This document shows positions 6,770 through 51,722 of a DNA stretch of 64,000 nt, piece after piece. This DNA is from Planctomycetota bacterium (GTDB lineage: Bacteria > Planctomycetota > Planctomycetia > Gemmatales > Gemmataceae). A program made the position numbers and the translations under genes. The notes under the pieces are model-generated. The model searched no databases, was not told the origin of the DNA, and saw only the letters and a program-made list of their open reading frames with translations. The stretch is taken from contig JACPPF010000023.1 in the NCBI GenBank assembly GCA_016191165.1, positions 62,001-126,000 of the forward strand, written 5' to 3'. The first letter of the stretch is position 1; each line of letters starts with the position of its first letter.

Positions 6770-6890
6770 ATACCGTTCGTCAAGCGGAGGAATACCAGCC
6801 CCACGCGCGAGCGTGGGGGTTTGAGCAACCTCCCAGAACCCCCCCAGCTCGCGCTGGGGGCTGGTCAAATACTCTTCGACGAACAGGATT
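6770..6890. repeat. 121-bp inverted-repeat element, copy A
   Basis: An imperfect palindrome whose ends read ATACCGTTCGTC and GACGAACAGGATT and whose inner arms are ACCAGCCCC and GGGGCTGGT, with a sub-hairpin (CACGCGCGAGCGTG). A second copy of the same length lies at 51546-51666. Both sit within a few bases of the stop codon of a rightward gene and fill a gap between convergent genes. No ORF is inside. The element resembles a small non-autonomous palindromic repeat and could act as a bidirectional terminator. Confidence 0.85.
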
Positions 6891-6894
6891 GAGG

Positions 6895-45270: not shown

Positions 45271-45993
45271 ATGCGCATCTTCATCACCGCCGGCAATACG
45301 CAGGCCCTCATCGATCGTGTGCGTTGCATTACCAACATTTTCACCGGGCGCACGGGCGCTCGCATCGCCCTGGAAGCGCATCGCCGCGGGCACGACGTGA
45401 CGTTCGCCACCTCGCATCCCGAAACCGTTGACACGGCGGTACGAGATTCGCCGCGTTTCCGCCTGGCCACCTACCGCACGTTCGAGGCGCTCGATGCCGT
45501 GATGGCCGAGCAGATCGGTCGGCAAAAGCAAGACGCCGTCGTTCACTGCGCCGCCGTCAACGATTATCGCACGGCCGGGGTTTTCGCACCGGCGTCAACA
45601 ACGCACTTCGCGGAGGACGGTTCCTGGCAGGACCCCCACCAACAGCCCAGGCTTGTCGATCGCGCTGCCGGCAAGGTGAAGAGCGACGAGCCGGAGTTGT
45701 GGCTGCGCCTGGTGCGGACGCCCAAGCTCGTGGACAGAATTCGTACCGACTGGCGTTTTGGAGGCGTCCTGGTGAAGTTCAAACTTGAAGTTGGCGTCAC
45801 GGAAGACGAGCTAAAACAAATCGCCGAAACCTCGCGCCAGCAGTCACAGGCCGACTGGATCGTCGCCAACACGCTCGACGGCGCGAGCGACTGGGCGCTG
45901 CTCGGCAACGGATTGGAGTATGAGCGCGTGACGCGCGACGCGCTTGCCAGCACCCTGCTCGACGCGCTCGAAAAGGCGGTGCGGCATGGCTAA
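45271..45993 (+). CDS. coaB: Phosphopantothenate-cysteine ligase (separate CoaB)
   Basis: A 240-residue CoaB-type protein joining phosphopantothenate and cysteine. MRIFITAGNTQALIDRVRCITNIFTGRTGARIALEAHRRGHDV parallels the D-x-VR-x-ITN-x-SSG-x-G motif; HCAAVNDYRTAG matches AAV-D; KVKSDEPELWLRLVRTPKLVD matches KIKK-L-L-L-TPDIL; and DWIVANTLDG the ADW-VAN motif. In most bacteria CoaB is the C-terminal half of CoaBC; here it is free-standing and lies first. It overlaps coaC by 8 bases, consistent with a stoichiometric pair. Confidence 0.88.
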   Translation: MRIFITAGNTQALIDRVRCITNIFTGRTGARIALEAHRRGHDVTFATSHPETVDTAVRDSPRFRLATYRTFEALDAVMAEQIGRQKQDAVVHCAAVNDYRTAGVFAPASTTHFAEDGSWQDPHQQPRLVDRAAGKVKSDEPELWLRLVRTPKLVDRIRTDWRFGGVLVKFKLEVGVTEDELKQIAETSRQQSQADWIVANTLDGASDWALLGNGLEYERVTRDALASTLLDALEKAVRHG

Positions 45994-46573
45994 GGTCTTG
46001 TTGGGCGTCACCGGCTCCGTGGCGGCGATCTACACGCAGGACCTCTTCGCCGATCTGCGCCAGGCCGGACATGACGTGAAGATCGTCGCGACCAGATCGG
46101 CTCTTTATTTCTTCGATCCTTTGGCCGTCGAGCCGACGCCGGAGGGCGAACGCAATCGCGACGTGGTCGTCCTGGACGAGGATGAATGGCCCGGCCATCG
46201 CTACCAGCGCGGCGACCCGGTCATGCACATCGAGCTGCGCCGCTGGGCCGACGTTCTGTTAATCGCGCCGTGTGACGCCAATACGCTGGCGAAACTCGCC
46301 CTCGGGATATCCGACAATTGCCTGACGTGCATCTATCGCGCCTGGGACCGCACCCGGCCAGTCATCCTCGCCCCGGCCATGAATACGCTCATGTGGGAAC
46401 ATCCCGCCACGGAGCGACACCTCACTCAGCTCACCGCCGACCTGCGTTCCGCGCTGCACGTCATCGCGCCGATCACCAAGAAGCTGGCGTGCGAGGATGT
46501 CGGCGTCGGCGCCATGGCGGAACGCGCCGAAATTGCTTTCCGTTTGAGTATGGTTTTGCCCCCGCCAGATTGA
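45986..46573 (+). CDS. coaC: Phosphopantothenoylcysteine decarboxylase (separate CoaC)
   Basis: A 195-residue HFCD flavoprotein producing 4'-phosphopantetheine. VLLGVTGSVAAIYTQDLFADLRQAGHDVKIVATRSAL binds FMN, the catalytic His is in MHIELRRWADVLLIAPCDANTLAKLALGISDNC, and PAMNTLMWEHPATERHL plus LACEDVGVGAMAE give the substrate clamp and Cys. Start 45986 (MAKVLLGV) overlaps the coaB stop. Order is reversed relative to the CoaBC fusion (CoaC normally N-terminal). Confidence 0.93.
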   Translation: MAKVLLGVTGSVAAIYTQDLFADLRQAGHDVKIVATRSALYFFDPLAVEPTPEGERNRDVVVLDEDEWPGHRYQRGDPVMHIELRRWADVLLIAPCDANTLAKLALGISDNCLTCIYRAWDRTRPVILAPAMNTLMWEHPATERHLTQLTADLRSALHVIAPITKKLACEDVGVGAMAERAEIAFRLSMVLPPPD

Positions 46574-49829: not shown

Positions 49830-50297
49830 ATGCCCACTGGCAAATACACCTACGACTATCCCCGCCCCGCCGTGACGGTGGACATCGTCATCGTCACGCG
49901 CGAGTCGAAGCGACGCGTGTTGCTGGTTCGCCGCAAGCACGAGCCGTTCAGGGGCATGTGGGCAACTCCGGGCGGGTTCATCGAAATGAACGAATCGCTC
50001 GACGATGCCGCCCGACGCGAACTTTTCGAAGAGACCGGAGTCCGCCTGAAAAAGTTGGTCCAGCTCCAGACTTTTGGCGATCCGCACCGCGACCCGCGCG
50101 GGCGCAATATCGCGGTTGCTTACCTCGCGATCGTCAACGCAGGCGAACTGACACCACGCGCCGGCGACGATGCGGCCGAGGTCGCCTGGTTTTCGCTGGC
50201 CCGGCCCCCGAAGCTGGCGTTCGATCATGCCGAGATTCTCGCGGCCGCCCGGGCGTATTTGCGAAGGAAAAAGGAAAAAGGAAAAAGGAAAAAGTGA
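49830..50297 (+). CDS. NUDIX hydrolase, coupled to folK
   Basis: A 155-residue NUDIX protein. Nudix box GGFIEMNESLDDAARRELFEETGV (G-x5-E-x7-REUxEExGU) near residues 49-72; YPRPAVTVDIVI and LQTFGDPHRDPRGR are typical of ADP-ribose/nucleoside-triphosphate members. Since its stop overlaps the folK-SDR ATG, dihydroneopterin triphosphate hydrolysis (FolQ role) is a fair hypothesis. The C-terminus KEKGKRKK is made by a 7-bp tandem repeat and may be variable. Confidence 0.9.
   Translation: MPTGKYTYDYPRPAVTVDIVIVTRESKRRVLLVRRKHEPFRGMWATPGGFIEMNESLDDAARRELFEETGVRLKKLVQLQTFGDPHRDPRGRNIAVAYLAIVNAGELTPRAGDDAAEVAWFSLARPPKLAFDHAEILAAARAYLRRKKEKGKRKK
50266..50293. repeat. Four tandem copies of a 7-bp repeat at the NUDIX-folK junction
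   Basis: GGAAAAA x4 directly before the overlapping stop/start. Because 7 is not divisible by 3, slippage changes the NUDIX C-terminal frame and could shift or abolish stop-start coupling; the last copy also supplies the G/A-rich Shine-Dalgarno for folK. Confidence 0.8.
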
Positions 50298-51541
50298 TGC
50301 AGCCCGTGCTCGTCGATGCGTATGTGGCCCTGGGGAGCAACCTCGGCGATCGCAGGGGCCTCCTCGACGCTGCGCTCCAGCGTTTGCGCTTGCAGCCCGG
50401 CGTTGACGTAATAAGTGTTTCATCGTATTACGAAACGGAACCCGTGGGCGGACCCGCCAAGCAGGGAGATTACCTGAACGCCGCGGCTCATCTCCGCACG
50501 ACCCTTTCCGCGTTTGAATTGCTTCGGGTCCTGCAAGCCATCGAAAGCCAGCTTGGCCGGGTACGCGCGGAGCGGTTTGGACCGCGCACCATCGACCTGG
50601 ACTTGCTGCTGTTTGGCCTCGCGATTGTGCAAGCCGACGAATTGACGGTGCCGCACCCGCGCATGCAGGAGCGCCTATTCGTCCTGGAGCCGCTGGCGGA
50701 GATCGCGCCGCTGGCGGTACACCCGATCTTGCGGAGCACCGTGGCTGATCTTGACAAACGTCTGCGCGAGGCGCAAGGCCTGACGCAATTTCACCGCGAA
50801 CTGCTCGGCCAGAACGCGGTCGTCGTTGGCTCGACGCGCGGCATCGGCCGGGCGATTGCCCTCGCCCTCGCGGACGCCGGCGCCAACCTGCTCGTCCACG
50901 GTCGGCGCGCGACCGACACCGTCGCCGCCGAGTGCCGAGCCAAGGGCGTGCAGATTCATGCGGGGCTTGCCGATCTGAACGACGATGACGCCTGCACGCG
51001 GCTCATCACGCAAGCGTGGCAGGCATTCCCATCCGTTGATATTTGGATTCAAAGCGCTGGCGCCGATACCTTGACGGGCGATGCCGCGACATGGCCTTTC
51101 GAACGAAAGTTACAGGAGTTGTGGGGGGTCGATGTCCGCGCGGCCATGCTGATGACGCGCGCGGTCGGCGCGCGCATGAAGCAACAGGGGCACGGGGTCA
51201 TCGTGACGATGGGTTGGGATCAGGCCGAGACGGGGATGGAGGGCGACAGCGGCCAGCTCTTCGCCGCGACCAAGGGAGCGATGATGGCGTATACCAAAAG
51301 CCTGGCCCTCAACCTGGCGCCGGAGGTGCGCGTCAACTGCCTCGCGCCGGGGTGGATTCGCACGGCCTGGGGCGAACAGGCGTCGGCCGCCTGGCAGGCC
51401 AGGGTCCGCGCGGAGACCCCGCTCCAGCGCTGGGGAACTCCCGAGGACGTTGCCGCTGCCGCCTGCTGGCTGGTTTCGCCCGCGGCCAGGTTCATCACGG
51501 GCCAGATCATTCGCGTCAACGGCGGCGCCGTGCGCGGTTAG
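50297..51541 (+). CDS. folK: FolK-SDR fusion: HPPK plus short-chain dehydrogenase-like domain
   Basis: A 414-residue fusion. Residues 1-165 are hydroxymethyldihydropterin pyrophosphokinase: VALGSNLGDRRGLLDAAL, YYETEPVGGPAKQGDYLNAA, QLGRVRAERFGPRTIDLDLLLFG and TVPHPRMQERLFVLEPLAEIAP. Residues about 172-414 are an SDR: VVVGSTRGIGRAIALALADAGANLLVHGRR (cofactor loop), IWIQSAGAD (NAG equivalent), LAPGWIRTAWGEQ and RFITGQIIRVNGG. The YxxxK active site reads F322-A-A-T-K326, so the catalytic Tyr is Phe; the usual Ser region is VTMGWDQ. The fold resembles FolM/pteridine reductases. It overlaps NUDIX by one base (TGATG) and is followed by repeat copy B. Confidence 0.9.
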   Translation: MQPVLVDAYVALGSNLGDRRGLLDAALQRLRLQPGVDVISVSSYYETEPVGGPAKQGDYLNAAAHLRTTLSAFELLRVLQAIESQLGRVRAERFGPRTIDLDLLLFGLAIVQADELTVPHPRMQERLFVLEPLAEIAPLAVHPILRSTVADLDKRLREAQGLTQFHRELLGQNAVVVGSTRGIGRAIALALADAGANLLVHGRRATDTVAAECRAKGVQIHAGLADLNDDDACTRLITQAWQAFPSVDIWIQSAGADTLTGDAATWPFERKLQELWGVDVRAAMLMTRAVGARMKQQGHGVIVTMGWDQAETGMEGDSGQLFAATKGAMMAYTKSLALNLAPEVRVNCLAPGWIRTAWGEQASAAWQARVRAETPLQRWGTPEDVAAAACWLVSPAARFITGQIIRVNGGAVRG

Positions 51542-51545
51542 CCCC

Positions 51546-51666
51546 AATACCGGTCGTCGAAGAGCACTTAACCAGCCCCACGCGCAAGCGTGGGGGTTTG
51601 GACAGCATCCCAATACCCCCCAGCTTGCGCTGGGGGCTGGTCAAGTGCTCTTCGACGAACGGTATT
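51546..51666. repeat. 121-bp inverted-repeat element, copy B
   Basis: Ends AATACCGGTCGTCGAAGAGC and its near-complement; inner arms CCAGCCCC/GGGGCTGG and sub-hairpins around CGCGCAAGCGTG and CAGCTTGCGCTG. Arms match almost fully (about 1-2 mismatches in the outer 34). It lies 4 bases after the folK-SDR stop and before the convergent methyltransferase. Same length and placement as copy A at 6770. Confidence 0.87.
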
Positions 51667-51722
51667 GCGGTGAGTACGGCGTACGCGCCATGTGTTGACA
51701 GCTCGATCCCGTGGGCGACCAG

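Follow-up and report, generated by a model that had tools for sequence, protein, structure and literature searches.

The HPPK–SDR fusion gene and its surroundings

The window analysed here, a stretch of 64,000 nucleotides, carries on its forward strand an open reading frame (50297..51541) encoding a protein of 414 residues, P0001, in which an HPPK (FolK) domain is joined to an SDR domain, as the first-pass annotation had described it. The HPPK domain spans residues 9-138 (50321..50710, forward strand); PF01288 matched the fusion with E 1e-39 and 135.9 bits (cut-off 25.7), and TIGR01498 matched this domain with 143 bits (cut-off 54.1), both scores thus lying above their cut-offs. A linker of 30 residues (50711..50800), placed by an alignment of 47 fused rows in which its length ranges from 22 to 46 residues, leads to the SDR domain at residues 169-411 (50801..51529), which has a FabG-like Rossmann fold according to profile and fold matches. 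PF13561 covers residues 179-410 (E 1.4e-44, 152.8 bits against a cut-off of 27) and NCBIfam SDR models cover residues 169-411; the Rossmann fold together with the SDR profile match makes the domain a member of the SDR superfamily. Four Pfam families matched the fusion at E 0.001, namely HPPK, adh_short_C2, adh_short and KR, and no DHFR match was found within it at that threshold.

Apart from the fusion, the host genome (7.2 Mb, estimated 95% complete) gave no HPPK match. Nine residues of the fusion, D100, D102, H120, R122, R126, N61, R88, R90 and R97, are present in 47/47 fused rows, and we take these positions to be the metal-binding Asp pair and the substrate-binding residues of FolK. Since all nine are invariant, the HPPK half is probably active as a kinase.

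The ATG of the fusion at position 50297 shares one base with the TGA of the upstream neighbour, a Nudix hydrolase gene on the same strand (49830..50297). A Nudix gene lies directly upstream in six of the seven genomes of the genus (the exception being G062). We considered it as a conserved partner and rejected this, as only 10 of the 69 loci bearing HPPK have it as their immediate upstream neighbour, several of these 10 come from copies of a single genome, and the arrangement is found at the level of the genus only. The Nudix hydrolase could be a dihydroneopterin triphosphate pyrophosphatase, which we mention as a candidate role. Just 3' of the fusion there is a 123-base element (51545-51668) with an 84% match to its own reverse complement; a second copy, 83% identical, is located at 6770-6891, and the element resembles a MITE or REP-type repeat. 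A scan for promoters and terminators revealed nothing exceeding shuffled sequence.

The catalytic residues of the SDR are replaced and conserved

In order to describe conservation, we started from 195 loci in which the SDR search gave a hit; 193 were usable and yielded 145 non-identical rows, which the scores separate into 139 rows of the family and 6 control SDRs from planctomycete genomes (seven control stretches were taken, and L213 gave no separate row). The fusion contains the motif F322-A-A-T-K326 and the Ser region V-T-M-G-W-D-Q, so that the FxxxK and VTMGW readings of the first-pass annotation are correct. Phe322 (51260..51262, forward strand, as are all codons given here) replaces the catalytic Tyr in 136 of the 139 rows and is present in all 53 fused SDRs among them. 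The annotation had reasoned that Tyr in close relatives would suggest a sequencing error or a local mutation; Tyr occurs at this position in three rows only, L069 and L070 (both Singulisphaera) and L152, none of which is a close relative. Judged by the alignment, Phe322 is neither a sequencing error nor a local mutation.

The remaining tetrad positions tell a similar story. Asp279 (51131..51133) occupies the place of the tetrad Asn, as aligned to 2hq1, in 139/139 rows, and the Ser region is replaced by Trp307-Asp308-Gln309 (51215..51223), conserved in 139/139, 139/139 and 138/139 rows, respectively. Lys326 (51272..51274; 139/139) is the sole tetrad member kept. The control SDRs have Asn in 5/6, Ser in 5/6, Tyr in 6/6 and Lys in 6/6 cases, and the family of 139 rows lacks the classical Asn-Ser-Tyr-Lys tetrad, three of its four members being replaced. 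Further SDR residues invariant in 139/139 rows are D257, T260, W353, T356, W358, W366, R369 and W379, and the GWDQ...GDSG stretch can serve as a family signature. The nucleotide-binding GxxxGIG motif is present. By a general rule for SDRs, the H201-G-R-R that follows the second strand, with R203 in 43/54 and R204 in 33/54 rows, suggests NADPH as the cofactor.

The active site looks rebuilt and under constraint, not decayed. The loss of three of the four tetrad residues would agree with a catalytically dead SDR that acts as a scaffold, a dimerisation unit or an NADPH-sensing domain, and a non-catalytic dimerisation or sensing unit had indeed been proposed by the first-pass annotation. We find this most improbable, because the active-site stretch has acquired other polar and aromatic residues that hardly vary (D279, W307, D308 and Q309, next to the invariant K326), GxxxGIG is kept, and the SDR occurs elsewhere as an independent, free-standing gene in clusters for cofactor biosynthesis; the same points favour an enzyme over an inert unit. 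The annotation's other suggestion, a different mechanism, stands in a guarded form: the SDR probably does use one.

The SDR is fused in one order and free-standing in the other planctomycete loci examined

We examined 102 genomes of the order to which the host genome belongs and which holds the Gemmataceae records. The SDR family was found in 92 of them, 88 having one near full-length fusion match and four (G012, G014, G031 and G048) having the SDR in pieces or shortened. HPPK was also found in 92/102 genomes, in open frames of at least 344 codons except for one 53-codon fragment in G026, and no complete free-standing HPPK was seen among the 102; apart from the G026 fragment at a contig, each HPPK detected in the order belongs to the fusion. 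Outside the order, HPPK was beside the SDR in 0/43 and 0/47 loci, a few of these loci being truncated at contig ends (e.g., L100), where the absence of HPPK is less telling; in the planctomycete loci examined there, the SDR is a stand-alone gene.

Among the best 80 of 238 relatives and the planctomycete samples, the SDR family was seen in planctomycete-like records only. The records of the relatives carry the label Planctomycetota or unassigned bacterium; the one exception, L064, is labelled Bacteroidales and is placed among Gemmataceae in the tree. In this tree the family is set apart from the 6 control SDRs by a branch of 0.84 with support of 99, to be read with a warning of long-branch effects; resolution of the backbone is poor, and two changes are needed to account for the fused rows.

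Gene neighbourhood of the free-standing SDRs

A DHPS-like gene (TIGR00284/DUF6513) lies directly 3' of the free-standing SDR, on the same strand and within 600 bp, in 25/43 and 26/47 loci of two overlapping samples. In the order of the host genome, the partner fused to the SDR is HPPK, the enzyme of the step that immediately precedes the DHPS-like one. Genes found near the SDR in several lineages are PCD, PabB, PTPS, an MptN-like ligase, RFAP synthase, and Fhc subunits or MCH (methenyl-H4MPT cyclohydrolase); the names of the Fhc subunits are our reading of the sequences, and PabA counts were not used, as some opposite-strand matches look like carbamoyl-phosphate synthase small subunits. None of this gene set was found near the SDR in several of the 47 loci (e.g., L190, L192, L194, L196, L197, L199, L208 and L209). 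In one H4MPT cluster, a CitG-like domain and a 6-pyruvoyl tetrahydropterin synthase domain are fused (L152:8517-9935).

PCD is directly downstream of the SDR in 10/47 and 3/43 loci. Together, QDPR and PCD recycle tetrahydrobiopterin, and the SDR might in a similar manner act with PCD to recycle H4MPT that has become oxidised (quinonoid or 4a-hydroxy-derived). This is very unlikely, however, as most loci have no adjacent PCD, and a PCD homologue is also present in the MCH cluster of L156, which belongs to a genome devoid of the SDR (G286).

The SDR co-occurs with methenyl-H4MPT cyclohydrolase

The phylum sample comprised 392 planctomycete genomes, in which the SDR was counted from a threshold of 280 bits upwards and one partial match was kept in addition (G454, 185.7 bits); weak matches of 175-187 bits in six genomes (G113, G154, G158, G289, G404 and G414) were left out, and MCH is present in none of these six. 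The SDR was found in 48/392 and MCH in 50/392 genomes, and 48/48 SDR genomes have MCH; the two with MCH and no SDR are G286 and G453. At the family level, both genes occur in nine families (f1, f3, f4, f6, f7, f55, f57, f72 and f78), MCH only in one (f69) and the SDR only in none, and two listed genomes of f5, from the same class, have neither. The association gives a Fisher p of 1e-59 without phylogenetic correction, and the correlation is supported by few independent lineages. In the order (n=102), 88 genomes have MCH and the SDR, 10 have MCH only, and 4 have the SDR fusion only. Three of the MCH-only genomes (G035, G050 and G058) have a completeness of 93% or more. These exceptions weigh against the reductase reading given below; gaps in the draft assemblies could produce them and are likely. 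The pterin-pathway setting that had been suggested for the fusion is supported, and the SDR tracks an H4MPT gene. The link between the SDR and H4MPT is strong; the reaction itself is a proposal.

The same co-occurrence and gene clustering would also agree with the SDR being an H4MPT-pathway reductase of another kind, one that acts on the side chain derived from RFAP and opens and reduces its ribofuranose to the deoxyribitol, with the hydride going to a quinone-methide-like carbon so that no Tyr would be needed. To our knowledge no enzyme is assigned to this step, and a literature search on it returned nothing. The SDR adjoins the DHPS-like gene and is near RFAP synthase in some lineages. Every H4MPT maker should need this step, yet G286 and G453 lack the SDR, while the step for which the literature drawn on describes unrelated enzymes across lineages is that of dihydromethanopterin reductase. 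We thus consider a side-chain reductase unlikely.

DHFR follows ThyA and not the SDR

Since the SDR is fused to a folate enzyme, HPPK, and no DHFR match was found in the host genome nor in 87/102 genomes of the order, the SDR could be the missing dihydrofolate reductase of genomes without FolA, alone or with dual specificity. The absence of DHFR is, however, explained by ThyX. Among the 50 MCH genomes, ThyA was found in 17 and ThyX in 32, never together, with G450 having neither; DHFR is present in 17/17 ThyA genomes and in 1/33 of the remaining ones (G416). Moreover, 15 of the 17 genomes with ThyA and DHFR also carry the SDR, and 228 of the 344 genomes without the SDR also lack DHFR (at E 1e-8). 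The host genome itself has ThyX, one MCH and one Mpt_N protein, and no ThyA or DHFR match. A role as the missing dihydrofolate reductase is therefore quite unlikely, and dihydrofolate, which the first-pass annotation had named among substrates to assay, is less likely than dihydromethanopterin, as the SDR follows the H4MPT gene and neither DHFR nor the type of thymidylate synthase.

A simple DHFR replacement had seemed possible from three genomes that have DHFR but no fusion (G028, G035 and G050). The idea is weakened on three counts: all three genomes also lack HPPK, possibly because of gaps; in seven others (G006, G009, G027, G060, G067, G087 and G094) the fusion coexists with a strong DHFR match; and it is ThyA, not the SDR, that DHFR goes with. 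Two ThyX matches were found at G162:C32:10909-12315, each in a 577-codon open frame, which may represent a tandem ThyX fusion.

A reductive step without a recognised enzyme

The literature drawn on here comprises PMC5020050, PMC6193120, PMC8305020, PMC6787355, PMC1971073 and PMC8996148. An opinion paper of 2016 reports that planctomycetes and some Proteobacteria have no recognised AfpA, and that in Methylobacterium DmrA takes its place. According to a 2018 paper, DmrA is of bacterial DHFR origin and nearly confined to alphaproteobacteria, all planctomycete homologues in its tree group with DfrA and not with DmrA, and the dihydromethanopterin reductase step is carried out by unrelated enzymes in different lineages.

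In our own search, no protein above the AfpA (TIGR02699) cut-off was found in the 50 MCH genomes, the best match reaching 30.6 against 192.45 bits; sub-cut-off matches of 21-31 bits occur in 14/50. The cut-off was passed in 2/14 control genomes, and a divergent DmrB may escape this model. DHFR-type proteins were searched for with PF00186, and DmrA was covered through this DHFR model only. AfpA was also tried as a discriminator for the MCH-only genomes G286 and G453, which proved uninformative, as nothing above the cut-off was found there either. The sole AfpA match of the host genome, a weak one, is a stand-alone CoaC-like flavoprotein at 45986-46573 (N-terminus of the CoaBC model, 136 bits against a cut-off of 219.7).

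The SDR was also considered as a methylene-H4MPT dehydrogenase, and this was rejected as the main idea. An Mpt_N protein, which we take to be of the MtdA/B/C type, is present separately from the SDR in 24/26 genomes (it is absent in G035 and G453); the 26 genomes were chosen by hand, 22 from among the 50 with MCH and 4 from the order. Because no AfpA was found above the cut-off, the planctomycete homologues group with DfrA, and the Mpt_N protein is separate, dihydromethanopterin reduction is in planctomycetes a reductive step without a recognised enzyme.

Proposed function and mechanism

The distribution, the location and the type of chemistry of the SDR fit this unfilled step, which makes it a candidate reductase. 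We propose that it is an NADPH-dependent pterin reductase of planctomycete H4MPT biosynthesis, most likely dihydromethanopterin reductase (7,8-H2MPT to H4MPT), a reading to which we give about an even chance. Its evolution from FabG-like SDRs as a dihydromethanopterin reductase is the best explanation of the data; the substrate, direction, cofactor and roles of the residues are those we infer.

In the proposed scheme, HPPK would presumably supply folate and H4MPT alike with their pterin diphosphate; in the host genome's order it is physically joined to the proposed reductase. NADPH would deliver a hydride to C6 of the dihydropterin, and the N5 proton would come from a water that Asp308 or Asp279 may orient. 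Lys326 would position the nicotinamide as in other SDRs, and Trp307 and Phe322 may pack against the pterin. In such chemistry the Tyr acid would be dispensable, because neither a ketone nor an alkoxide is involved.

Reduction of pterins or folates by SDRs has precedents in PTR1 and FolM. As described in PMC8996148, in the first reduction by PTR1 Asp181 takes a solvent proton and Tyr194 passes it to the substrate, while in the second reduction (dihydro to tetrahydro) the proton comes from a catalytic water. Since the second reduction draws its proton from water, the loss of Tyr would fit a dihydromethanopterin reductase, and by analogy an SDR dedicated to this reduction might not need Tyr. However, mutations of the PTR1 triad, Tyr included, cost much activity according to the same source, and this counts against a Tyr-less reductase. 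Also against the reductase reading, G286 and G453 have MCH with neither the SDR nor an above-cut-off AfpA, so another reductase must act there; moreover, Tyr is present in 3/139 rows, the FolM/PTR1 motif is absent, and guilt by association leaves the reaction unfixed.

A more far-reaching version, which we put forward tentatively and regard as doubtful in its entirety, is that of an independently evolved dihydromethanopterin reductase, a further kind next to DmrA and the flavoproteins AfpA/DmrB/DmrX. It would be a FabG-type SDR with the tetrad changed to Asp-(Trp-Asp-Gln)-Phe-Lys, reducing N5=C6 of methylated dihydropterins with water as the acid and covalently coupled to HPPK in Gemmataceae and their order, and it would also be the folate-side dihydropterin reductase of the many members of the order without FolA.

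The planctomycete H4MPT metabolism figures in arguments on the origin of methanogenesis and methylotrophy, and the SDR offers one candidate gene for the planctomycete step whose AfpA-type enzyme is not recognised. If the proposal is true, evolution can remodel the active site of an SDR for C=N reduction and dispense with the Tyr acid, and an SDR family known by generic matches would gain a function.

Comparison with known systems

In the open-licence PMC literature we found no description of this SDR or of the HPPK–SDR fusion, and a prior mention is possible. The best curated matches of the SDR are generic, sub-cut-off models, e.g., glucose 1-dehydrogenase and FabG. The AlphaFold model of the fusion is confident at the level of single residues (mean pLDDT of 92.4) and has a pTM of 0.66. 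Among the matches listed, the closest solved structures are of FabG types (2hq1, 2p68, 4jro and 2uvd), with 4jro_D giving Z 33.8 and rmsd 1.9 over 237 aligned residues; the fold search returned FabG and other classical SDRs, and PTR1 and FolM were not among the 50 matches listed, an absence that carries no weight. The sequence profile likewise found FabG and classical SDRs among the 60 of 372 PDB matches listed. The family shares with these the fold, GxxxGIG and the Lys, but has Asp for Asn, WDQ for the Ser region and Phe for Tyr, and the FabG equivalog model TIGR01830 scored 150.4 bits, below its cut-off of 297.75.

PTR1, FolM and TmpR are NADPH-dependent SDRs acting on pterins, and PTR1, like the family, has an Asp in the active site. 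The FolM/PTR1 family motif, given in the literature as TGX3RXG, is absent from the family, which has Gly182 at the place of the Arg in 54/54 rows, and 136/139 rows are without the Tyr. A Singulisphaera protein scored below the cut-offs of both models tried, reaching 133.8 of 325 for TmpR and 132.7 of 288 for pteridine reductase. The SDR probably works like a pterin-reducing SDR, yet the criteria applied here do not class it as FolM, PTR1 or FabG. With DmrA and AfpA/DmrB/DmrX it would have in common the proposed reaction and the position in the pathway; however, DmrA is derived from DHFR and AfpA/DmrB/DmrX are flavoproteins, while all Pfam matches of the fusion are to HPPK or to families of SDR type. 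As to FolK, the N-terminal domain of the fusion scores above the family cut-offs and keeps the key residues, and differs from it by the C-terminal SDR extension.
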